DNA of 20,785 nt from a virus. Every line of letters starts with the position of its first letter. Positions within the stretch are counted from its first letter, which is position 1. The stretch is from the IMG/VR virus record IMGVR_UViG_3300006037_000049, positions 1 through 20,785 of that record, one strand, 5' to 3'. The position numbers and the translations under genes are program-made. A model generated the notes under the pieces. The model ran no database searches and was not told where the DNA came from. It saw only the letters and a program-made list of their open reading frames with translations. Positions 137 through 16,965 of this stretch are shown here, in pieces.

Positions 137-144
137 AGTAGCCC

Positions 145-164
145 GGCGCCGAACACTCGGCGTC
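145..164 (+). terminator. Hairpin after the decoration gene, possible terminator or processing hairpin
   Basis: The segment CGCCGA (147-152), loop ACAC, TCGGCG (157-162) forms a perfect 6-bp stem. It can extend to 8 bp through a G-U and a G-C pair (145-146 with 163-164). It begins nine bases after the stop codon. No T-run follows, so a classic intrinsic terminator is not supported. The stretch right after it (about 165-190) is locally A-rich in an otherwise GC-rich region, as expected where a promoter might lie. Confidence 0.35.
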
Positions 165-191
165 TGAACAGTAAACCAAACTGACGATACC

Positions 192-223
192 CGCGGCCAC
201 GTTGGCCGATCGGGCTGGCCGCG
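192..223 (+). promoter_or_regulatory. Alternative hairpins in the major capsid leader
   Basis: CGCGGCCA (192-199) is the perfect reverse complement of TGGCCGCG (216-223), giving an 8-bp stem with a 16-base loop. A competing smaller hairpin, GGCCA-CGT-TGGCC (195-207), uses the same left arm, so the two structures exclude each other. The right arm of the long stem lies inside the element shared with the tail tube leader. Mutually exclusive stems are typical of attenuators and of mRNA stability or processing elements, but which applies here is inference. Confidence 0.4.
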
Positions 224-234
224 CTTTGTCCGCG
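211..234 (+). repeat. Leader element shared with the tail tube gene, copy 1
   Basis: These 24 bases match 4956-4979 at 22 of 24 positions. The core GGCCGCGCTTTGTC is followed in both copies by GCG and then GAAAGGC, which holds the ribosome binding site. Here GAAAGGC is at 241-247 and the GTG start at 254. The element sits outside any convincing reading frame and occurs before the capsid and the tube, the two most abundant virion proteins. That suggests a shared expression signal such as a late promoter, a leader stabiliser or a translation enhancer. Confidence 0.6.
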
Positions 235-253
235 TGCCGGGAAAGGCAACGCC

Positions 254-1198
254 GTGACCTATCCGAACAGTCCGATCCACAGGGACCGGGTTCTCGCCAA
301 CTTCGCCGTCGCGTACGAGAACTTCGACCTCATCGCCGACAAGCTCTCGCCCATCGTCCCCACGGACGAGATCTCCGGTACGTACTTCAAGCGCAACAAG
401 GAGAGCTTCGCGCTCTACACCGGCCAGCAGGTGATCGGCCCGTCGAGCGACGTGCCCGAGACCGAGGGCGACGTCACCGAGGGCACGTTCGCGTGCAAGG
501 GCCGCGGCCGCATGTCGAAGATCCCGCTCCAGACGGACGCGCAGGCGGATATCCCGCTGACGCTCCGCCAGGACGCCGTGATGGACGCCATGTCGCTGCT
601 CATGCTCGAGCGCGAGGTGCGTATTGCAACGCAGCTGACCACGTCGGGCAACTTCGCTGCGGCGAACACCGCGACGGTCGGCACCAAGTGGGACTCGACG
701 GGCAACCCGCTCGTGGACATCGACGCGCTCCGCGGCAACATCTGGCGCGCGGGCAACACGCGGCTCGTCGCGTACTGCGGCTGGGATGTCTGGAAGGGCA
801 TCAAGAACAACACCAACGTGCTCGCCCGTATCAACGGCGGCGCCACCACGGCGGCCCCTGCGCTCGTGCTTCGACAGGCGTTCGCGGAACTGATCGAAGT
901 CGACGAACTCGTGGTCGGTCAGGCTTGGTACCTGCCGAGCGTCGGCGGCACGCAGGCCCGCGTGTGGGGCAAGGACTTCGGCATCGTCGCCGTGTCCAAC
1001 TCGCCCTCGACGCGCTCGCTCTCGTTCGCGCAGACGATGCGCTGGACGGCGATCGGACCGGGCGGCGTGCGGCACGAACAGTGGATCGACCCGAGCAAGG
1101 GGACCATGGGCGTCGAGCGCCACAAGATCACGATGTCCGACGACGAGATCATCCCGGCGAACGACGCGGGCCTCTTGCTCAAGGCGGCGGTGACCTGA
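254..1198 (+). CDS. Major capsid protein
   Basis: This 314-residue protein is the likely building block of the phage head. The N-terminal part carries the features of the Mu-like and HK97-fold capsid families: an early helix containing NFAVAYENFDLIADKLSPIV, then a strand with GTYFKRNKESF, then an acidic segment around residues 70-80. A long central helix RQDAVMDAMSLLMLEREVRI matches the capsid spine helix by position. The start is GTG at 254 with GGGAAAGG about 7 bases upstream. A longer upstream in-frame ORF is not available, because the 202-1395 frame is a different one. Its 117-base leader holds hairpins and the element shared with the tail tube gene. The stop TGA (1196-1198) overlaps the next ATG. 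Position before the neck genes and after a decoration protein agrees with the call. Confidence 0.85.
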   Translation: MTYPNSPIHRDRVLANFAVAYENFDLIADKLSPIVPTDEISGTYFKRNKESFALYTGQQVIGPSSDVPETEGDVTEGTFACKGRGRMSKIPLQTDAQADIPLTLRQDAVMDAMSLLMLEREVRIATQLTTSGNFAAANTATVGTKWDSTGNPLVDIDALRGNIWRAGNTRLVAYCGWDVWKGIKNNTNVLARINGGATTAAPALVLRQAFAELIEVDELVVGQAWYLPSVGGTQARVWGKDFGIVAVSNSPSTRSLSFAQTMRWTAIGPGGVRHEQWIDPSKGTMGVERHKITMSDDEIIPANDAGLLLKAAVT

Positions 1199-1395
1199 TG
1201 GCTGTCCAGGACAAGGCGAAGATCGCCGACGTCGTGGCTGCCGATCAAGCTCGCGGGCCGAAGCTGGTCCGTATGGTCGTGCGCTCCGGGCAGCTGCTCA
1301 TCGAGGGTGCGATCAAGGGCGAAGGGTACGAGTTCGACGCGCCCGAAGAGCAGGCCGCTGGCTTCCTCGCCAACGGTATCGAGATCAAGTCCTGA
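1198..1395 (+). CDS. Small head-neck region protein of unknown function (65 aa)
   Basis: The ATG at 1198 overlaps the capsid stop as TGATG and the ORF runs 65 residues to TGA 1393-1395. The second half (IEGAIKGEGYEFDAPEEQAA followed by GFLANGIEIKS) has the pattern strand, Gly-rich turn, Gly-x-x-Phe-x-x-Pro/Ala-Glu-Glu, helix, Asn-Gly. Many small phage proteins between capsid and connector genes show this pattern and probably form a compact beta-hairpin plus helix domain. Its biochemical role is not known to me. The much longer ORF that begins at 202 in this frame is antisense-like noise across the capsid gene and is Arg- and His-rich, so I use the short start. Confidence 0.7.
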   Translation: MAVQDKAKIADVVAADQARGPKLVRMVVRSGQLLIEGAIKGEGYEFDAPEEQAAGFLANGIEIKS

Positions 1396-1871
1396 TGCCC
1401 GCCGCGTACCTCACGCAAGCCGATCTCGAATCGAGGGTCAGCCCGAGTCTCGTGCTGCGCCTCCTCGACGACGACGACGACGGCGTGGTGGACGCGGCGG
1501 CTTTGGATGCCACGCTCGTTGCGGCCGAGCGGTTCGTCGACGGGCATGTCTCGCGCCTCTATCCGATGGCCACGATCCTCGCGGACGCGGCCACGCTGGC
1601 GCACGTGCGGAGCCTCGCTTCGGCGATCGCGGTCCACTACGCGTACCAACGCCGACCCGAGTTCGGGACGCGCGAAGGCACGCCGTACCAGGGCCCGTTC
1701 GACGAAGCGGTCAAGGTACTGGACAAGGTCCGCAAGGGCGAGTTCCGCCTCGACACGAACGGGGCGCCCGTCGCTCCGGCCAACGTCGGTGGCAGCCTGA
1801 CCGAGCCGCAACAGTCGACGATCGAGACCATATGCCCTGGGTTCTTCACCAGCGGCTTCGGTAGCTACTGA
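1395..1871 (+). CDS. Mu gp36-like protein (DUF1320 family), neck region
   Basis: The product has 158 residues. It opens AYLTQADLESRVSPSLVLRLL, then an acidic run DDDDDG, then a helix AALDATLVAAERFVDGHVSRLYP. This opening, with helical segments built around a conserved R-LYP turn and a following paired helix with AIAVHYAYQRR, is the recognisable layout of DUF1320 (Mu gp36-type) proteins. Those sit between the capsid and the tail genes and are thought to belong to the head-tail connection. The C-terminal 30 residues are low in charge and Gly/Thr-rich and end GFFTSGFGSY. The ATG at 1395 overlaps the previous stop (TGATG), and its own stop overlaps the next start in the same way. Confidence 0.8.
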   Translation: MPAAYLTQADLESRVSPSLVLRLLDDDDDGVVDAAALDATLVAAERFVDGHVSRLYPMATILADAATLAHVRSLASAIAVHYAYQRRPEFGTREGTPYQGPFDEAVKVLDKVRKGEFRLDTNGAPVAPANVGGSLTEPQQSTIETICPGFFTSGFGSY

Positions 1872-2329
1872 TGCAAATCAGCGTCGACACAAGCGACCTG
1901 GAGGAGAGAGGCGGAGCGTTCGTTTCCGCCCTCTCCCAAGGGGCAAGCGCCGCGCTTCTGCAACAGGGCGCCGCTTCCTACAATCGGATCGTCCAGGGCA
2001 CCTACTGGACCAATCGAACCAACGCCACGCGCAAGACGTTCAAGCTGTCGCGCCCGGCTCCGCTGACGGTCACTCTCGAGTCGACGGACAAGGTTGCGCA
2101 CTTCCTGAACGTCGGCACGGAGGCGCACGTGATCAAAGCAAGGAAGGCGGGCGCGCTCTCGTTCTTCTGGGCAAAGGCAGGCAGGCAGTTTCTCGGCGGC
2201 AAGGTGAACCACCCCGGCACCACCGCCACGAAGTTCGTCAAAACCGAAACGGAGATCGGCGTGGGCCAGTTGCAGATACTCGTCGACGCCGCCGCCTCTC
2301 GCGCTGTCTCCAACGCGGGCATTGGCTGA
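1871..2329 (+). CDS. HK97 gp10 / Mu gpG-like tail completion protein
   Basis: The 152-residue protein begins MQISVDTSDLEERGGAF with a helix typical of the gp10-like fold. It then has an Arg/Lys-rich strand region, a strand pair around FLNVGTEAHVIKARKAGALS, and the motif VNHPGTTATKFV at about residues 115-126. The V-x-HPGT signature followed by a long C-terminal helix is the hallmark of HK97-gp10-like and Mu gpG-like neck and tail completion proteins, which join the tail tube to the head connector. The gene is coupled by TGATG overlaps on both sides. Confidence 0.75.
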   Translation: MQISVDTSDLEERGGAFVSALSQGASAALLQQGAASYNRIVQGTYWTNRTNATRKTFKLSRPAPLTVTLESTDKVAHFLNVGTEAHVIKARKAGALSFFWAKAGRQFLGGKVNHPGTTATKFVKTETEIGVGQLQILVDAAASRAVSNAGIG

Positions 2330-3213
2330 TGGCGCTCCTGTTCGGTGGCTACCGCTTCCCGCTCGACGCGTCCGGCGGCGCGGTGCCGCAGCCGTTCACG
2401 AGCGCCGCGCTTCCGTACCTTCAAGACTGCCTCAACGCGCACCTGAGCGAGGCTTTCGAGGCTGCCGTGCGCGGCAAGGTGCAAGGCGCCACCGGCCGTC
2501 TCGCGTGCCAAGAAACGGGCATCGTCGACGTCTCCTACCAGCTGACGAAGAAGACGTTTCGCCTGCCGTATCTCTGCCTCGCGCTCGACTCCGGCGTCTT
2601 CTCTGAAGGCACGGCGCGATGGGACCAGGATGTCACGCGGTACCAGCTTTCCTACGTCCTTCCTGCGCTACCGGAAGAGGCGATCCAAGAGGTCGCCGTT
2701 CCGCTCCTCGGCGCCGTCGCGAAGCTGCTCTCGCTGCTGATCAAGCAGGGTGGCGACCCGAACCACCGCAGTGGCGCGCGCGTCTGGGAAGAGGCCGAGA
2801 TCGTGGCCGTCCGCATCGGCGCGTACCAACTCGAGTTCCTGACGCTCGGCAGCGACATGGCAACGACGCAGCGCTTCCCGCTGCTCCGCGCTGAAGTCTT
2901 CGTGACCGAGCAAGAGGGATACGACCAGGACGGGCCCGCGCTCGTCGAGCAGCGCCACGCGGTCGATCTCAGCAGCGACGACGGCGTCTACCCGTCGATC
3001 GTCGAAACAATCCTCACGCCCTTATCGGGTACGCCGCCGGACGAATCCGGCACGGAGATTCACCATGATCGTTCGGCTCCTTCCGATCGAAGGCGAGCAC
3101 ACGTATTCGCCTCCTCACGTCCGCTTGGGGCGAGTCACGCCCATCGGCTACACGCGCCAGCCGGACGGCTCGTTGGTCTTCGACGGCGCGGCTGTCGATC
3201 TCACGCTCGATGA
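2329..3213 (+). CDS. Probable tail terminator protein (Mu gp37-like position), with an anomalous 3' end
   Basis: The ORF has 294 codons, but only about the first 245 look like real protein. This part contains predicted strands and helices such as RYQLSYVLPALPEEAIQEVA and VRIGAYQLEFLTLG, and a strand RAEVFVTEQEGYDQDG. Its place between the tail completion protein and the DUF2635-like gene before the sheath matches the Mu-like tail terminator (DUF1834-like), which caps the tail tube and stops its growth. I see no diagnostic motif, so the call is mostly positional. From about residue 247 the translation turns Arg/His/Ala/Ser-rich and overlaps the next gene by 149 bases in another frame. Every other junction nearby is a 1-base overlap. 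The true end may be near 3066, where a TGA in a third frame overlaps the next ATG. Confidence 0.6.
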   Translation: MALLFGGYRFPLDASGGAVPQPFTSAALPYLQDCLNAHLSEAFEAAVRGKVQGATGRLACQETGIVDVSYQLTKKTFRLPYLCLALDSGVFSEGTARWDQDVTRYQLSYVLPALPEEAIQEVAVPLLGAVAKLLSLLIKQGGDPNHRSGARVWEEAEIVAVRIGAYQLEFLTLGSDMATTQRFPLLRAEVFVTEQEGYDQDGPALVEQRHAVDLSSDDGVYPSIVETILTPLSGTPPDESGTEIHHDRSAPSDRRRAHVFASSRPLGASHAHRLHAPAGRLVGLRRRGCRSHAR

Positions 3214-3367
3214 CGAGCACCAATCGTCCGACCTCGCATTCCTCCGCAAGGAAGTGACGCAAGGGCGCGTCCGCCCCGGCGACGCGCAGGCCGCGCTCGT
3301 CCTCGGCGGCACGTTCGCCGAACCGCAACCGAAGAAGGCGCCCGCCAAGGGCGAGGAGAAGCTCTGA
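3065..3367 (+). CDS. DUF2635-like (Mu gp38-type) small protein before the sheath
   Basis: The 100-residue product begins MIVRLLPIEGEHTYSPPHVR and has a Pro-rich, positively charged start. The middle has a beta hairpin (RQPDGSLVFDGAAVDLTL) followed by DLAFLRKEVTQGRVRPGD. The order (MxVRLLP opening, then strand pair, then an aromatic/Arg helix leading to a basic turn) resembles the DUF2635 proteins that precede the sheath gene in Mu-like phages. The C-terminus is Lys/Ala/Pro/Glu-rich and probably disordered. The start ATG is 3065; the ATGA there also provides a TGA in another frame, relevant to the end of the previous gene. A good Shine-Dalgarno-like GAGGAGAAG for the next gene lies inside its end. 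Confidence 0.65.
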   Translation: MIVRLLPIEGEHTYSPPHVRLGRVTPIGYTRQPDGSLVFDGAAVDLTLDDEHQSSDLAFLRKEVTQGRVRPGDAQAALVLGGTFAEPQPKKAPAKGEEKL

Positions 3368-4884
3368 TGGCGACGCTCGGACTCAACCTCACCGCTCTCT
3401 CGTCCGGCTATCCGATCCCAGGCTCCTACGTCGAGGTCCTGTTCGCACAGGGCCAATCGGCCGGCGACCTGTCGGCAAAGAAGATCCTGATTCTCGCGCC
3501 TTCGATCGCCGCGGGCTCGATTGTCCAAGACTCCGAGGTCTACGGCCCGATCTCCGACGAGACCGAGGTGGTCGCCAAGGTCGGCGCCGGCTCTCCCGCT
3601 CACCGCATGGCACGCGCCGTGTTGTCGGTGAACAAGGCCGCGCAGTTGTACATCGTGGCGCCCACGCGTTCGGCCGGCGTCGCCGCGACGCTCTCGGTCA
3701 CGATCACTGGCACGGCCACGGGCGCCGGCGTGGTTCGCGTCGAGCTCTGCGAGGAGACCGTCGACTACGCGTTTGCTTCGGGCGACACGCCGACCGCGAT
3801 CGCCGCTGGCATCTCCGCAGCGTTCAACGCGCTCACGCACCTTCCCGCGGCTGCCGTGCCCACCGCTGGCGTGATCGCATTCACCGCCAAGGTGGCCGGC
3901 CCCGAGGGCAACGCGCTTCGTCTGCGCGCGAGCATGACCGCGGGCGTCACCTCGGCCATCACCGCGACCTCCGAGACCGCGTTCGCATCCGGCGCGACGG
4001 CCGCATCGCTGACCAACGCGCTCGCCACGATCGCCGCGCTCGACTTCGACGTCATCGTGCCGCACACGCACGCGGGCGCGTCGTCCGATCCGCAGCTGTC
4101 CGCGCTCGTGACGCAGGTCAACACGCAGGCACTTCCGATCACCGGCATCCGACAGAAGGTGATCGCGGGCATCGCTCTCGCGCCCGCCACGGCGGTCACG
4201 CTCTCGCAGAGCATCAACAAGCCGCGCCTCGACTTGGTGAACTTGGAAGAGTCGCCGCTCGAGCCGTCGGTGGTCGGAGCGATCTGCGCAGGCGTCGCTG
4301 CAAATACGTACTTCGTCGACCCCGCTGCGAACCTCGACAGCTACGGCACGAAGCCCGAGCACGTGTTCCCGGTGAAGGCTCCTCGCAACAAGGGAACCAA
4401 CTTCACGAGCACCGAGCTCGCGCTCATGCTCAACGGCGGCGTGACCCCGATCGGCGTCACCGCGACGGGTACTCCGTACATCGTCCGTCAGGTGACCGCC
4501 TACTCGCTCAACGGCGCGCTCGCCGACTACCGCGTGCGTGACTCGCACCGCGTCTACGTGGCGGACTGGTACGCCGACACGGCTCTCGCGCGCCTCGCAA
4601 CGGCTCCGTGGACGAAGCTCACGGACGACCCGCCGAACGACGTCCAGCCGCCTGCGAACTTCGCGACGCCAAAGCGCGTCAAGGGGCTCATCGAGCAGCT
4701 GATCAGCGACGGCTGCGACCTCGGCTACCTCGACCCGGCAAAGAAGGTCGCGATGCTCGCATCACTCTCCGTCGGCATCGATCCCGTCAACGCGACGCGG
4801 AACAACATCGGCTCCAACGTGTTCGCGGCCAACCTGCTCCACCAGACCGCGCACCTCGTTCGCGAGACGAGCGCCGCAGCCTGA
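3367..4884 (+). CDS. Tail sheath protein
   Basis: The product has 505 residues, a usual size for Mu gpL-like sheath proteins, which polymerise around the tube and contract on infection. It opens with a sheath-type N-terminal arm containing GYPIPGSYVEVLFAQGQSAG and then KKILILAPSI. There is an inserted Ala/Thr/Gly-rich beta domain in the middle (about residues 105-215, with ALSVTITGTATGAG-like repeats) and a typical C-terminal domain. That domain has NNIGSNVFAANLLHQTAHLV at the very end and KKVAMLASLSVGIDPVNATR just before. The start ATG at 3367 overlaps the previous stop and follows GAGGAGAAG, an unusually strong ribosome binding site for this operon. A 109-base leader and a terminator-like hairpin follow before the tube gene. 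Confidence 0.88.
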   Translation: MATLGLNLTALSSGYPIPGSYVEVLFAQGQSAGDLSAKKILILAPSIAAGSIVQDSEVYGPISDETEVVAKVGAGSPAHRMARAVLSVNKAAQLYIVAPTRSAGVAATLSVTITGTATGAGVVRVELCEETVDYAFASGDTPTAIAAGISAAFNALTHLPAAAVPTAGVIAFTAKVAGPEGNALRLRASMTAGVTSAITATSETAFASGATAASLTNALATIAALDFDVIVPHTHAGASSDPQLSALVTQVNTQALPITGIRQKVIAGIALAPATAVTLSQSINKPRLDLVNLEESPLEPSVVGAICAGVAANTYFVDPAANLDSYGTKPEHVFPVKAPRNKGTNFTSTELALMLNGGVTPIGVTATGTPYIVRQVTAYSLNGALADYRVRDSHRVYVADWYADTALARLATAPWTKLTDDPPNDVQPPANFATPKRVKGLIEQLISDGCDLGYLDPAKKVAMLASLSVGIDPVNATRNNIGSNVFAANLLHQTAHLVRETSAAA

Positions 4885-4890
4885 CCCGGT

Positions 4891-4921
4891 GCCCGGCTTA
4901 GCCGTCGGGCGCTTTCTTCTT
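4891..4921 (+). terminator. Terminator-like hairpin between sheath and tube genes
   Basis: GCCCG (4891-4895) pairs with CGGGC (4906-4910), with a partial inner GGC-TTA-GCC helix. It is followed within two bases by TTTCTTCTT, a T-rich tract that stands out in this GC-rich sequence. It starts seven bases after the sheath stop. A stem plus T-tract is the usual intrinsic terminator shape. Here it would reduce read-through from the sheath gene and imply that the tube gene has its own promoter downstream. Confidence 0.45.
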
Positions 4922-4938
4922 CGCAATCTCCAAAGCCT

Positions 4939-4960
4939 GCCCGCGCGTCGCGGAGCGGGC
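4939..4960 (+). promoter_or_regulatory. Hairpin in the tail tube leader
   Basis: GCCCGC (4939-4944) is the reverse complement of GCGGGC (4955-4960), a 6-bp stem with a 10-base loop. As in the capsid leader, the right arm of this stem runs into the shared 24-base element (4956-4979). Both leaders thus place a hairpin partly overlapping the 5' end of the shared element. Confidence 0.35.
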
Positions 4961-4979
4961 CGGCCGCGCTTTGTCTGCG
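4956..4979 (+). repeat. Leader element shared with the major capsid gene, copy 2
   Basis: This copy matches 211-234 at 22 of 24 bases; the two differences are a C for T at the sixth base and a T for C at the twenty-first. It is followed by GAAAGGC (4982-4988) and the GTG start at 4994. The distance from element to start codon is 15 bases here against 20 in the capsid leader. Because the surrounding leaders are otherwise dissimilar, conservation of this piece suggests a functional expression signal. Confidence 0.6.
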
Positions 4980-4993
4980 GCGAAAGGCTGCCC

Positions 4994-5374
4994 GTGTCTG
5001 CTCTGATCAAATACACGAAGTTCTCGCTCTTCCTCGGCGGCACCCTTCTCGCCGAAGCCAACTCTGTCGACGCCACCTACTCGCCCGGCACGCAGAAGGT
5101 CATCACGACCGAGAAGGGCCTGTCTGGCTTCTCTCCCGGCGCCGGTGAGATGACTCTCAAGATCGACTCGGCGATGCCCCGCGCGGGTATCGAGTTCGAC
5201 TACGTGCAGGCCGCGTACGACATCACGATCTTGGACGTCGTGATGTTTCGCGCCGGCAAGAAGGTGAAGACCAAGGGCGTCATCATGGACGCGTCCGAGC
5301 AAGGCGGCGCCGACAAGCCGTCGGCCGCGTCGTTCTCGATGACGTGCTCCATTCCCGAGTTCAGCACGCTGTGA
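4994..5374 (+). CDS. Tail tube protein (Mu gpM-like)
   Basis: The 126-residue protein from GTG 4994 reads SALIKYTKFSLFLGGTLLAE and continues with strand-turn patterns. These include SVDATYSPGTQKVITTEKGL, FSPGAGEMTLKIDSAMP and a final strand pair with SFSMTCSIPEFSTL. This all-beta protein of about 120-130 residues directly after the sheath is the Mu-type tail tube, which stacks as hexamers inside the sheath. An in-frame GTG at 4889 would add 35 residues. The added segment is Arg/Leu-rich and would cover the conserved leader element, while GTG 4994 has GAAAGG at the right spacing, so I use the later start. The stop overlaps the next GTG. Confidence 0.8.
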   Translation: MSALIKYTKFSLFLGGTLLAEANSVDATYSPGTQKVITTEKGLSGFSPGAGEMTLKIDSAMPRAGIEFDYVQAAYDITILDVVMFRAGKKVKTKGVIMDASEQGGADKPSAASFSMTCSIPEFSTL

Positions 5375-9335: not shown

Positions 9336-10603
9336 TGGACAAGGTCGAGGTTCTGTTCGACGGCTCCTCGTTCGGGCTGATCACGGACCTGACGCTGACC
9401 GATTCGTTCCTGGACCCGTGCCAGACGATGACCGCGTCAATCTCCGCGGACGAGACGCGGTTCGATATCGTCGGCTCGGTCCGTCCGGGCGGCGCGTTCA
9501 AGGTGCTCGTCAACGGCGCGCCGCAGTGCTCCGGCATCGTCGACTCGGTCGAGATCGCATCGAGCCACGACGGCGGGCGCATCGTCTCCGTGACCGGCCG
9601 CGACCTTCTCTCGCAGATGGTCGACGGCAACGCTGACCCTCGGATCGCGATGTCGACGTCGATGCCGTTCGACGAGTTCTGTCAAAAGGCGTTCGACCAC
9701 TTCGGGTTCAAGGACGTCACGATCTTCGAAGAATACGGACCGAGCCGCGACCTTGCTCTCGGCCGCGCGGTCAAGACGAAGGGCACGGCGTCCAAGCGTC
9801 GTCGGAAGTTCAAGGATCCTGCCGACGGTCTACGCCCGAAAGACAACGAGGGCGGCTGGCAGTGGTTCGTGCGGATCGCTCACCGGCTCGGCTATCACGC
9901 ATGGGCAACGCCGGACGGGAAAGGCATCGTCGTAGGCATTCCCGATTACGACCAGGAGCCTGCCTACCGCCTGACGAGCAAGCGCAGCCAGGGCCTACAG
10001 GGCCTCGGCGCCGCGAACAACATCAAGACCGCTCGAGCGCGCCTGGATATCACTGGCCTTCCGTCCCACGTCTACGTGCGCGGCAAGTCGGCCAAGGTCG
10101 GCCAAGCGAAGGCGTACATCGGCTACGCCACCAACCCGAAGGCGCCTGTCTTCAAGCCGTTCTTCGTGTGCGACGAGGACTCGTCCACACAGGCACATTG
10201 CGACGCGTACGCGCGGCTGATTCTGTCGCGAGCGCAACGCAACGCACAGACGTACGAGGCCACGCTGCGCGGGCTCTCCGACCCCGAGACGAAGCGCGTC
10301 TACAACGTCGACACCGTAGCGATGGTGCTCGACGAAAACTGCGGCGTTGACGGCAAGATGTGGGTCGAGCAGCGGACGCTCCGCCACTCGCGCGCGGGCC
10401 AGGAAACAAGCCTCAAGCTGATTCCGAGCGATGCGCTGATCATGGACTATTACGTCAGCGACTCTCTCCCTCCGAGCGAGGCGTACGACGAAGCGAAGAA
10501 GAAGGTCGTGCCGCTGAAGGATGGCGATCTCGGGTACGCCGAAATCTTCATGGTCGGATGGCGCGAGGCAAAAGCCCGCGGCAAAGCAGAAAGAGGCCAG
10601 TAA
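9335..10603 (+). CDS. Baseplate hub protein (Mu gpP / gp44-like)
   Basis: The gene has tandem starts GTG 9332 and ATG 9335. I use the ATG, which gives 422 residues and a TGATG overlap. The product has the Mu gpP / T4 gp27-like hub layout. It begins with a beta domain (VEVLFDGSSFGLITDLTLTD), followed by RPGGAFKVLVNGAPQCSGIV, a segment around DLLSQMVDGNADPRI, and a second tube-like beta domain. Near the C-terminus are YARLILSRAQRNAQTYEATL and a strand NVDTVAMVLDENCGVDGKMW. The hub connects the tube to the spike at the tail tip. The stop TAA 10601-10603 overlaps the next ATG. Confidence 0.8.
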   Translation: MDKVEVLFDGSSFGLITDLTLTDSFLDPCQTMTASISADETRFDIVGSVRPGGAFKVLVNGAPQCSGIVDSVEIASSHDGGRIVSVTGRDLLSQMVDGNADPRIAMSTSMPFDEFCQKAFDHFGFKDVTIFEEYGPSRDLALGRAVKTKGTASKRRRKFKDPADGLRPKDNEGGWQWFVRIAHRLGYHAWATPDGKGIVVGIPDYDQEPAYRLTSKRSQGLQGLGAANNIKTARARLDITGLPSHVYVRGKSAKVGQAKAYIGYATNPKAPVFKPFFVCDEDSSTQAHCDAYARLILSRAQRNAQTYEATLRGLSDPETKRVYNVDTVAMVLDENCGVDGKMWVEQRTLRHSRAGQETSLKLIPSDALIMDYYVSDSLPPSEAYDEAKKKVVPLKDGDLGYAEIFMVGWREAKARGKAERGQ

Positions 10604-11280
10604 TGGGCGCGTGGACCGCTGACTTCAAAGACGTCTTCGATACCGTGTTCGGGATGGACTCTTCCGGTGGTTCAGAAGAGACGATCACGCTCAAGCTGCG
10701 CGACGCGGGCGACGAAGACGGGCAGACCGCCGACGACGTCGAGGCATGGGGGCAAGGGTGCATCCTGTACCGGCCCAAGGCGCCCGACGCGGAAGGCAAG
10801 GCGCAGGTCCTCACGGCGCAGGTCGGCCCGCGGAAGATCGCGATTGCCTCTCGAGACAGCCGCGCCACCAAGACGTTTGGCGCCGTCAACGCGGGCGACG
10901 CCGTGTTCGGCTCTCCAACGGGCGGCGGCATGTTCCGCGCGAACGACGACGGTTCGGCCTCGATGCGCGTCGTTGGTGAAGGTGGAGTCCAGAAGGGTTG
11001 GGTCTCCATCGAGACCGACGGAACCATCCTGATCGGCAACAAGTGGGGGCACCTCGAACTCGGCGAAAACGGGTTTTCGGTCTGCCTGTGCGACGGGCCC
11101 GATTACTTCCAGGTCAAGCCAGGCGAGATCGTGTGCTCGTCGAGCAAGGTCAACCTCGCCGCTGCTGCTGTCGCGCTCGGCCTTGGCGCCGTCTTGCCGC
11201 TTGCTGCCGTGCCCACGGTGCCGCCCGGTGGCTTCGCGTGCGCGTCGCCGGTGAGTAGCGTCACCGTGAGGCCAGGGTGA
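10603..11280 (+). CDS. Baseplate spike protein (Mu gp45 / gpV-like)
   Basis: From ATG 10603 (TAATG overlap) the product has 225 residues. The N-terminal half has an OB-fold-like arrangement with an acidic linker (LRDAGDEDGQTADDVEAWGQ) and strands such as CILYRPKAPDAEGKAQVLTA and VGPRKIAIASRDSRA. The next part is Gly/Asp-rich with repeating strand-turn units (SPTGGGMFRANDDGSASMRV), as in the beta-helical needle of gpV-type spikes. The C-terminus is hydrophobic and Pro/Gly-rich (VALGLGAVLPLAAVPTVPPG), as in the spike apex region. The spike sits at the tail tip and pierces the cell envelope. No HxH iron-binding motif is visible at the end, but the next gene encodes a Pro-rich protein that could contribute there. 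Confidence 0.75.
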   Translation: MGAWTADFKDVFDTVFGMDSSGGSEETITLKLRDAGDEDGQTADDVEAWGQGCILYRPKAPDAEGKAQVLTAQVGPRKIAIASRDSRATKTFGAVNAGDAVFGSPTGGGMFRANDDGSASMRVVGEGGVQKGWVSIETDGTILIGNKWGHLELGENGFSVCLCDGPDYFQVKPGEIVCSSSKVNLAAAAVALGLGAVLPLAAVPTVPPGGFACASPVSSVTVRPG

Positions 11281-11603
11281 GCCGGTGCGCGTTCCCGCTC
11301 CCACCTGTCCCCGGTCTCCCATCGATCACGATTCCTCCGGCGTTGCCTGGGATTCCAGCTCCGCCGATCCCTCGCTTGCCGTCGTTTGCGATCCCGTTCC
11401 CGCCGATTCCAGGGCTGCCGTCGATCACCTTCCCGCCGTCGCTTCCTGGCCTTCCGATCCCTCCGTTGCCGCGCCTTCCGTCGTTCGCGATTCCGCTGCC
11501 GCCGATTCCTGGATTGCCTTCGATCTCGTTTCCTCCTCCGCTTCCCGGCTTCCCTTTCCCTCCGTTTCCAAGGCTTCCCACATGCCCGCTCGACCTGGTG
11601 TGA
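11277..11603 (+). CDS. Proline-rich 33-residue repeat protein beside the spike
   Basis: The 108-residue protein starts at GTG 11277, which overlaps the spike stop as GTGA. It is almost entirely repeat: after MSRCAFPL come three units of 33 to 34 residues (residues 9-41, 42-74, 75-108) of the form PPxPGLPSIxxPPxLPGxPx then PPxPRLPSFAIPx. The last unit ends LPTCPLDLV. Nearly every second or third residue is Pro, so it probably adopts polyproline-II or an extended rod. The single Cys near each end (residue 4 and the C-terminal TCPLD) could form a disulfide or a metal site. Placement between spike and gp46-like wedge suggests a spike or hub accessory. Function is not known to me; I recall similar Pro-rich small proteins ending in a CPLD-like motif among phage tail genes, but cannot verify this. 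Confidence 0.7.
   Translation: MSRCAFPLPPVPGLPSITIPPALPGIPAPPIPRLPSFAIPFPPIPGLPSITFPPSLPGLPIPPLPRLPSFAIPLPPIPGLPSISFPPPLPGFPFPPFPRLPTCPLDLV
11301..11600 (+). repeat. Three tandem 99-base repeats encoding the Pro-rich units
   Basis: The units start at 11301, 11400 and 11499 (first two 99 bases each, third 102). The amino acid units agree closely, with conserved PPxPGLPSI and PPxPRLPSF blocks, while their bases differ mainly at third codon positions (for example ccg, cct, ccc and cca for Pro). The array therefore looks old and under selection for the encoded residues, not a recent DNA duplication. Confidence 0.7.
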
Positions 11604-14697: not shown

Positions 14698-16220
14698 GCC
14701 TCTCGTCAATCGTCCGCGTTCCCGAGGTCGGCGAGGTCGGCGTCAAAGCCACATTCCGCGCGTCTGGCGACCCCGCGGGGACCGAGCTTCGGTATTACCT
14801 CGCCTACGCCCCAGCCTCGTCCGCCCTGGTCACGCTGGCCACCGTAGACGCCGGAGACGAGACGCTTGCTCGCCTGCAAGTCGACGCGACGAAGGCCGGC
14901 TACTTCACGCCCGACGTCCCCGGTCACTACCAGGTCGAGTGCCACGACGTCACGGTCACGTCGACGCCGCGGACGTGGAACGAGGCGCCGGCGCTGCCCG
15001 ACACGGACAACGATTTCGCGGGCGCTCCCGTGTTGACGCTAAACACGGTCGAGGCCGCGTCTCGCTATGGCTACGGTGACTTTCGCGTTGTCGAAACGGT
15101 CACGCGGACGATTGGCCAAGCGCCTGACACGCTGGCGGTTTCGCTGCGCGTGCACGACAACATTGAGACCAAGCTCGACGACGCGGTGGTCTTCAAGCCG
15201 TCGAGCACAAAGCTCGCCTTCGTCGCCGCGTACGACGATCAGATTCTCGGCATCCGCGACATGTTGCGCGACGGCGACATCGTCGGCGATTCGGCGCTAC
15301 AGCAGCGCGTCGGCCTCTCCCTGTCTTCGCTCCGATTCGAGTGGAACGCGCACCTGATCGCGTCGTCGACATGGACCGTCCACAGCGTCGCCGACGTGGC
15401 GAACGTGGTCCCGTCAGCGACGGTAACGACGCTCGCCGGCGCACTGACGAGGCTCGAGCTACTGCGCACGGCGTACGAGGCGCACCGGGCGTCCGCGACC
15501 TATCACGGCGCGCCCAGGACGGCGGACACAACGAACGTGATTACGCTCGCCGCGCCTACCGACTTGACGACGGCGATCGCCTTCTGCCGCCACCTGCTTT
15601 TCACGATCGCGCACCGTGGCCATTTCATCGGGGGTGGCGCTCACCAGAACCCAGGCGACCCGAACGGAAACTACACGTTCGACTTCTCCTCAAGCCTTGT
15701 TGGCGTCCTGTCCGCGACCAACGAGATCACGAGGATCTGGAACCTTCATTGCGGCAGGACGTCGGGCGTCGCGCCGCACAGCGGCAACGACACGAGCAAT
15801 GGGATCTCGGTCATCCCCGACGACACGATGACGGTCGCCGCGCTCGTCGCGTGGGCGAACGCGTGGGCCGACAAGATCGAGCGGCACACGGCGGACCTCG
15901 ACGCATCGGGCACGCCGCTCGTTTCGCCGATTCACCAGAACACGCACCCGATCAAGCTGGCCGCTCGCGCCTCCGGGCTCGCCGATGCCATTGCGCTGAT
16001 CGAGCTTTGCTGTGTCGCGGAGGAAACGCACTTTCTCGACGGCGGCACGGGTGACGCTCACTTCGGGCCGCAGTTCGGATTCCACAACCGCAACGGCGCA
16101 TGGCCAGCGATGACGCGCCTTCAGCGGCACTGGATCCGCATGACGAAGACTCAGCTTCCGTCGACGCCGAATAATATGAACACGGAACCGACCTCGCTCC
16201 TCACGCTCGGCTGGCGCTAG
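14694..16220 (+). CDS. Tail fibre-like protein with duplicated helical module
   Basis: From ATG 14694 (ATGA overlap) the product has 508 residues. Residues 1 to 90 form a beta domain (KATFRASGDPAGTELRYYLA, FTPDVPGHYQVECHDVTVTS) that resembles an Ig-like fold. A middle beta part follows. Then there are two copies of a helical module: residues about 247-311 (TRLELLRTAYEAHRAS with TADTTNVITLAAPTDLTTAI and AHRGHF) and 381-447 (VAWANAWADKIERHTAD with HPIKLAARASGLADAIALIE and EETHF). Both are framed by His residues. Position after the gp48-like gene suits a fibre or receptor-binding protein, but function is inferred. The stop TAG (16218-16220) shares its bases with the stop of the reverse-strand lipoprotein. 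Confidence 0.65.
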   Translation: MSLSSIVRVPEVGEVGVKATFRASGDPAGTELRYYLAYAPASSALVTLATVDAGDETLARLQVDATKAGYFTPDVPGHYQVECHDVTVTSTPRTWNEAPALPDTDNDFAGAPVLTLNTVEAASRYGYGDFRVVETVTRTIGQAPDTLAVSLRVHDNIETKLDDAVVFKPSSTKLAFVAAYDDQILGIRDMLRDGDIVGDSALQQRVGLSLSSLRFEWNAHLIASSTWTVHSVADVANVVPSATVTTLAGALTRLELLRTAYEAHRASATYHGAPRTADTTNVITLAAPTDLTTAIAFCRHLLFTIAHRGHFIGGGAHQNPGDPNGNYTFDFSSSLVGVLSATNEITRIWNLHCGRTSGVAPHSGNDTSNGISVIPDDTMTVAALVAWANAWADKIERHTADLDASGTPLVSPIHQNTHPIKLAARASGLADAIALIELCCVAEETHFLDGGTGDAHFGPQFGFHNRNGAWPAMTRLQRHWIRMTKTQLPSTPNNMNTEPTSLLTLGWR

Positions 16221-16933
16221 TCGACGATCGGCTTGCAGCAGTATTGGTAAATGCGCTTGCCTTCTCCTTCGTTGATCCCGCCGAGCGGAAGCGCAGGGTT
16301 CGGGTAGCTTCGACAAAAGCGATCGCCCCATGCGCTCGACAGGTCGGCCGCGGACTCCGGCGGCATCGCTAGGCACTCGCGATCCGCTGGGCACGTTTCC
16401 TTGATCGCCTGCCACGACGGCGACGGGTAGGCCGCCTTCGCCTGTTCGCACGTCAGCACGCGGTCGGCCGGCGACGGCTTCGCAGACGCGTTGCAGTCGC
16501 ACATGCGACCGTCTCCGCTGGCCGCGTTGACGCAGGCGCCGAAGCCCGTTGCGCCACACGCGCACTCGCTTTGCTGTGGGGCACACGTGGGCGACGGAGG
16601 CGCTCCCGCGCTGCCAGCCATGCCAGACGCGCCGGCGATGCCACCTGTTCCGCCTGGTGACCCAGCCGAACCAGCGGCGCCCGCGGTTAGCATTCCGCCC
16701 GCGCCTGCCGTCGACATGCCAGCCGATCCGCTCTTACCCGACGCGCCGGCGGCTCCCGATGCGCCAGCCGTTCCGCTGGCTCCGGACTTGCCACCCACCG
16801 GTTCGGCCTTTCCTGCTGCGCCGGCGGCCCCGGCCGTGGGCTGCTCCTCGTCAGGCGGCGCATCGGCTGGCGCCGTCGCCTCGGAAGAACAGGCCGTGAG
16901 GAGCAGAGAGGCGACGATGAGAGCGAGGCGCAT
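16217..16933 (-). CDS. Lipoprotein with collagen-like linker and Cys-rich domain, phage cargo
   Basis: The only convincing reverse-strand gene encodes 238 residues. It begins MRLALIVASLLLTAC, a lipoprotein signal with lipobox L-T-A-C; the Cys is residue 15 and is followed by SSEA. Residues about 32-105 are a Gly/Ala/Ser linker with consecutive Gly-x-y triplets (SGASGTAGASGAAGASGKSG). The rest is Cys-rich with 12 Cys, including ECACGATGFGACV and YCCKP near the end. I chose ATG 16933 over the upstream GTG 16990 because it gives a proper signal peptide; the TAGGGGA before it is close to the start. This style is common in myxobacterial lipoproteins. As phage cargo it may change the host surface, for example block re-infection, which is inference. 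It ends at CTA 16217-16219. Confidence 0.8.
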   Translation of the reverse strand: MRLALIVASLLLTACSSEATAPADAPPDEEQPTAGAAGAAGKAEPVGGKSGASGTAGASGAAGASGKSGSAGMSTAGAGGMLTAGAAGSAGSPGGTGGIAGASGMAGSAGAPPSPTCAPQQSECACGATGFGACVNAASGDGRMCDCNASAKPSPADRVLTCEQAKAAYPSPSWQAIKETCPADRECLAMPPESAADLSSAWGDRFCRSYPNPALPLGGINEGEGKRIYQYCCKPIVD

Positions 16934-16965
16934 TCCCCTACGATAGCCACGTTTTGCGTTTGTAG

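Follow-up and report, generated by a model that had tools for sequence, protein, structure and literature searches.

Two long leaders in a contractile-tail operon

The IMG/VR record IMGVR_UViG_3300006037_000049 is a single virus contig of 20,785 bases, and we analysed its whole length, referred to below as the window. Judged from sequence, its gene content is that of a Mu-like contractile-tail phage, with products that include capsid, head-tail adaptor, sheath, tube, chaperone-like, tape-measure-like, and baseplate hub and wedge proteins. Three of these genes and two leaders concern us here:

137..253, plus strand: capsid leader, 117 nt, from the stop of the upstream gene to the capsid start (reading frames, gene calls)
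254..1198, plus strand: major capsid gene, GTG start (phrog_1005, E 7e-47)
3367..4884, plus strand: tail sheath gene (phrog_165, E 1e-57)
4885..4993, plus strand: tube leader, 109 nt, from the sheath stop to the tube start (reading frames, gene calls)
4994..5374, plus strand: tail tube gene, GTG start (synteny, homologues, predicted fold)

The tube gene had no family match in the PHROG assignment, and its fold was therefore predicted from 14 homologues. In a Foldseek comparison with solved structures, the resulting model (mean pLDDT 69) matched phage tail tubes (E 8e-6, TM about 0.7). A preliminary description of this DNA had named the capsid and tube genes; both names hold, the first through PHROG and the second through the predicted fold. 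It had also singled out the two leaders as the only long intergenic gaps of the operon apart from a lipoprotein island, and the gene calls agree: outside that island, 137-253 and 4885-4993 are the sole gaps in the plus-strand chain that exceed 33 nt.

Several other features of the window deserve mention. The gene at 16217-16936 lies on the minus strand, alone on the reverse strand within the tail operon. With its lipoprotein-like signal (LLLTACSS) and an extended region of Ala-Gly-Ser repeats, its product resembles myxobacterial cell-surface lipoproteins; the gene is possibly host-derived cargo. Between the baseplate genes, 11277-11603 encodes a short protein consisting almost entirely of proline-rich repeats (PPLPGIPIPPLPRLPSF). 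The frames 2329-3213 and 3065-3367 overlap by 149 nt. Since relatives match the product of 2329-3213 only to about residue 253 of 294, the end of this frame may be extended or frameshifted.

A matched element before the capsid and tube genes

Near the end of each leader lies a copy of the same short sequence, followed by an identical Shine-Dalgarno site:

211..234, plus strand: element copy 1, capsid leader, CGGGCTGGCCGCGCTTTGTCCGCG; 22/24 bases shared with copy 2
241..247, plus strand: Shine-Dalgarno GAAAGGC of the capsid gene (sequence)
4956..4979, plus strand: element copy 2, tube leader, CGGGCCGGCCGCGCTTTGTCTGCG; 22/24 bases shared with copy 1
4982..4988, plus strand: Shine-Dalgarno GAAAGGC of the tube gene (sequence)

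The agreement at 22 of 24 bases is as first noted, and so is the arrangement downstream, in which each copy is followed by GAAAGGC and then by a GTG start (254 and 4994). Could two leaders of this composition share such a stretch by chance? When just these leaders were shuffled 5,000 times with dinucleotides preserved, no pair of 24-base stretches agreed at more than 20 positions. The record holds one further same-strand pair at 22/24 (18429/18711), which lies inside a Gly-rich coding repeat; none of 12 whole-record shuffles yielded any 22/24 pair. Random further copies of the core, suggested earlier as a sign against the element, were not found: GGCCGCGCTTTGTC has no third copy in the record with up to two mismatches allowed. 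The similarity between the leaders ends sharply to the left of 211/4956, and to the right of the element it returns only at GAAAGGC and the start codon. Both copies lie on the coding strand, 14 and 19 nt from their GTG codons. We conclude that the 24-mer is a genuine duplicate, beyond chance. A link between the element and gene starts is supported by the sequence, because the match is non-chance, its position relative to the start codon is similar, and just these two genes carry it.

Perhaps the element acts as DNA? On this reading it would be a late promoter or operator, recognized by a phage polymerase, sigma factor or activator, that yields short transcripts ahead of capsid and tube. We regard this as rather unlikely. 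A repeat at two gene starts would fit, and one relative of the same group, L103, has repeated DNA-like elements at gene starts, seven copies of TCATAAATCGATTTATGA. However, a sigma-70 promoter was rejected since no matching site (-35/-10 hexamers, 16-18 nt spacing) occurs in the first 20 kb, and a sigma-54 promoter was rejected on inspection of the sequence, both copies reading GG-N10-TC where GG-N10-GC is required, with the spacing off by one and GT for GC. Moreover, the element ends so close to the start codons that scant space is left for a leader.

We searched for the element in related phages. A two-sequence sheath alignment retrieved 30 related viral loci and an improved alignment 33, together about 60 partly overlapping IMG/VR loci; scans that used one capsid, sheath or baseplate sequence at a time retrieved no relatives, nor did two scans of genome contigs. 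The element was absent from the roughly 60 sheath-related loci, 42 of which were searched as whole records. Among 104 loci, a 12-base core occurred only in the window's own two copies and in L072, on the opposite strand and away from the capsid and tube leaders; a match to a 14-base core, with one mismatch, was found in only one of the 42 whole records, in an unrelated context. Closest in its capsid protein is L078 (42% capsid and 47% sheath identity), a relative whose leaders measure only 38 nt (capsid) and 10 nt (tube). Beyond this group, an 18-letter form turned up in just two viral contigs, both unrelated, where it lies opposite long reading frames. A looser form, GCTTTGTC...GAAAGG, gave 37 stretches, about the chance expectation by a rough estimate, none resembling a second leader of this kind. 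A mobile or widespread repeat was rejected on these counts. A BLAST comparison of the leaders with phage and plasmid sequences returned only weak matches (best E 0.1).

Hence, within the collections searched, the element appears to be confined to this phage. Lack of conservation had been put forward as evidence against it, and that evidence is partly there, in that none of the relatives keeps the sequence; but these relatives, whose best sheath identity is 48%, are too distant to be decisive, and the absent match is for this reason compatible with function. The same absence is what would be expected of a neutral, recombination-born duplicate, either a copy from leader to leader or a linker flanking the capsid-to-sheath block, with no regulatory role: the element is confined to one record, and L078 manages without either leader. 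Against such an origin, the match is restricted to the stretch adjoining the Shine-Dalgarno site and stops abruptly, and the spacing to the start is kept though the intervening bases differ. We think a neutral origin unlikely and the 24-mer probably a regulatory leader element private to the phage.

Predicted folds in the leaders and at the tube gene junctions of relatives

Folding of the two leaders gave three hairpins in each:

145..164, plus strand: hairpin A, capsid leader, with no T run behind it (folding)
190..214, plus strand: hairpin B, capsid leader, its right arm formed by the element's first bases (local fold)
216..239, plus strand: hairpin C, capsid leader, loop CUUUGUC (probability about 0.6-0.8 for most pairs)
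4888..4913, plus strand: hairpin A, tube leader, terminator-like, followed by TTCTTCTT (terminator scan, folding)
4935..4960, plus strand: hairpin B, tube leader, right arm overlapping the element start (pair probability about 0.97)
4963..4981, plus strand: hairpin C, tube leader, loop CUUUGUC (local minimum-energy fold)

When the fold spans the region from slightly 5' of the element to about 17 nt inside the gene, both leaders are predicted to have the same order: hairpin B, hairpin C with its CUUUGUC loop, then GAAAGG. The difference C231/T4976 preserves the pair that closes the loop (G-C or G-U). In the capsid leader, hairpin B has an alternative 8-bp pairing of 192-199 with 216-223. When the whole leader is folded, hairpin C stays favoured for capsid (about 0.6-0.8) but is a minor form for tube (0.34), where UUUGUC pairs instead with the Shine-Dalgarno region (0.58). 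Hairpin C was below significance against shuffled flanks (about 0.06 and 0.25), and the stability of the two whole leaders is ordinary for their base composition (z -1.66 and -0.63). Thus, the hairpin overlap noted earlier survives as a prediction, the right arms overlapping the element start, but the hairpins are within chance. The leaders gave no Rfam covariance-model match up to E 1, so that a known RNA family was rejected, and a by-eye check of the window's leaders found no loop-loop contact of the kind described below for relatives.

The element had been proposed to boost expression. Opening the Shine-Dalgarno site is predicted to cost 8.6 kcal/mol for the capsid gene and 9.1 for the tube gene; over the 21 genes tested, the median is about 5.3. 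Because both sites cost more to open than most, these values argue against a simple accessibility enhancer, and the proposed boost is unsupported, both ribosome sites having a higher predicted occlusion than most others of the operon.

Does the junction before the tube gene have leaders in other phages? We ran a simple coding-score gene caller on 38 loci. With the window counted in, the sheath-tube gap was at least 50 nt in 14/28 cases, compared with 58/333 other junctions (Fisher p 2e-4, uncorrected for relatedness). Since this gap is often long in relatives, the junction is one at which leaders recur. Four relatives (L047, L076, L077 and L055) have strong hairpins in the gap that end about 20-30 nt before the tube start, and three others (L049, L054 and L103) have intrinsic-terminator-like sites. 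Taken together, the leader hairpins of relatives did not exceed those of other long gaps in stability (p 0.13). In the window, the only plus-strand site in the first 20 kb to pass an intrinsic terminator test (GC-rich stem, then T-rich run) is 4888-4913, directly after the sheath stop; the shared element fails it, and the total of terminator-like sites in the window is about that obtained from shuffles. That a hairpin and GCTTTGTC form a weak terminator setting readthrough into capsid and tube is very doubtful: the terminators of the three relatives and hairpin A of the tube leader speak for it, but GCTTTGTC has just three consecutive Ts, that hairpin A lies outside the shared element, and nothing terminator-like was found in the capsid leader.

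In relatives, the gap that follows the tube gene is long in 16/27 cases, even more often than the sheath-tube gap. A common content is a pair of hairpins whose loops are complementary; a T run follows the second hairpin, and the tail chaperone gene begins shortly after. Nine such gaps are:

L059: 11934-12100
L063: 3107-3267
L067: 6035-6171
L062: from 11923
L083: 9941-10113
L051: 3328-3498
L073: from 12002
L116: 2361-2500
L040 (MW202476): 9936-10073

The loops are complementary over 6-9 bp, with letters that differ from phage to phage, as in L059 (GATAGGGAC/GTCCCTATC) and L063 (GATCGTGTC/GACACGATC). With hairpins picked by script, complementarity of at least 6 to the phage's own loop was found in 10/18 sequences and in 25/306 swapped pairings. 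With three loops set by hand, the counts were 14/18 and 27/296, with a permutation p of about 2e-5 that is optimistic because the sequence set was partly selected. In some phages the following gene has the loop 1 sequence again in its ribosome site (TGGATAGG in L073, TCAGTGGGA in L139). As modelled, this would be a kissing-loop terminator RNA, a candidate new structured RNA. Nine of the loci with this RNA had no match in Rfam and a literature search found no description of a post-tube kissing-loop RNA; it is apparently undescribed so far. No RNA of this kind is present in the window, where the tube and chaperone genes overlap by 4 nt. In this phage group, then, long gaps and structured RNA cluster at the tube gene's two junctions, and the post-tube RNA, the most interesting by-product of our analysis, deserves its own study.

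An RNA-level reading and comparison with described repeats

Outside model phages, it is poorly understood how a tailed phage obtains capsid and tube subunits by the hundred, but neighbouring products in few copies, from a single late operon. With a matched element at just these two genes, the window offers a small, testable case. Our tentative preference is for a cis-acting 5'-leader RNA element that controls how the capsid and tube cistrons are translated or what becomes of their mRNA locally. The non-chance match, coding-strand copies that stand 14/19 nt before GTG with the same GAAAGGC, the shared local fold order, the loop-closing pair kept by C231/T4976, and the long sheath-tube gaps of relatives all favour it. 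It is weakened by hairpin C, which is not significant and is a minor form in the full tube leader, by ordinary whole-leader stability, by the lack of conservation, and by a copy number of two, too few for a covariation test.

Such a phage-specific element, placed where two 5' leaders end, would most likely act at the RNA level through the predicted order of hairpin B, hairpin C with its CUUUGUC loop, and GAAAGG. In the tube leader the element could pair with the Shine-Dalgarno region and so keep the site partly closed, until a ribosome or a phage protein, or cleavage of the RNA, opens it. In this way capsid and tube, the two most abundant proteins, might receive shared, separately tuned expression within one operon. 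There is a slim chance that the modelled CUUUGUC-loop hairpin is a translational operator for one phage protein, co-regulating capsid and tail tube post-transcriptionally. If so, the polymer-forming proteins of head and tail would be co-regulated from two sites in one operon.

Phages Mu and P2 likewise have the sheath gene followed by the tube gene, but there the two genes lie 9 and 12 nt apart and no leader separates them, compared with 109 nt in the window. The repeat of L103, a sheath-sharing relative, resembles the element in being an identical sequence shortly before several gene starts. In its whole record (L106 and L107), TCATAAATCGATTTATGA is a perfect palindrome with seven identical copies and no variant copies, at 1440, 4476, 10774, 15418, 20190, 25021 and 34691. 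Every copy precedes a likely gene start, and the palindrome is a candidate operator of that phage. Unlike the element, it is palindromic, AT-rich, unrelated in sequence, present seven times, and not placed before a capsid or tube start.

The closest described kind are the start-associated sequences (SAS/ESAS) of cluster K mycobacteriophages, whose role in translation is a proposal only. Like the element, these are short asymmetric repeats in one orientation, just before start codons and adjoining the ribosome site; most of them lie in gaps over 50 bp, and about half have an upstream inverted repeat. The leaders here are similar: the element and GAAAGGC are both on the plus strand, in gaps of 117 and 109 nt. 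However, the element (CGGGCYGGCCGCGCTTTGTCYGCG, with ribosome site GAAAGGC) falls outside the 13-bp SAS/ESAS consensus GGGATAGGAGCCC with up to two mismatches, and it stands 14-19 nt from the start where SAS/ESAS are a few nucleotides away. SAS/ESAS occur in 11-19 copies per genome, before non-structural genes only, and are conserved across their cluster, whereas the element has two copies, before structural genes, and is absent from relatives. Because sequence, copy number and gene class differ, we do not class it as SAS/ESAS; by analogy, it would belong to the same general kind of phage leader repeat.
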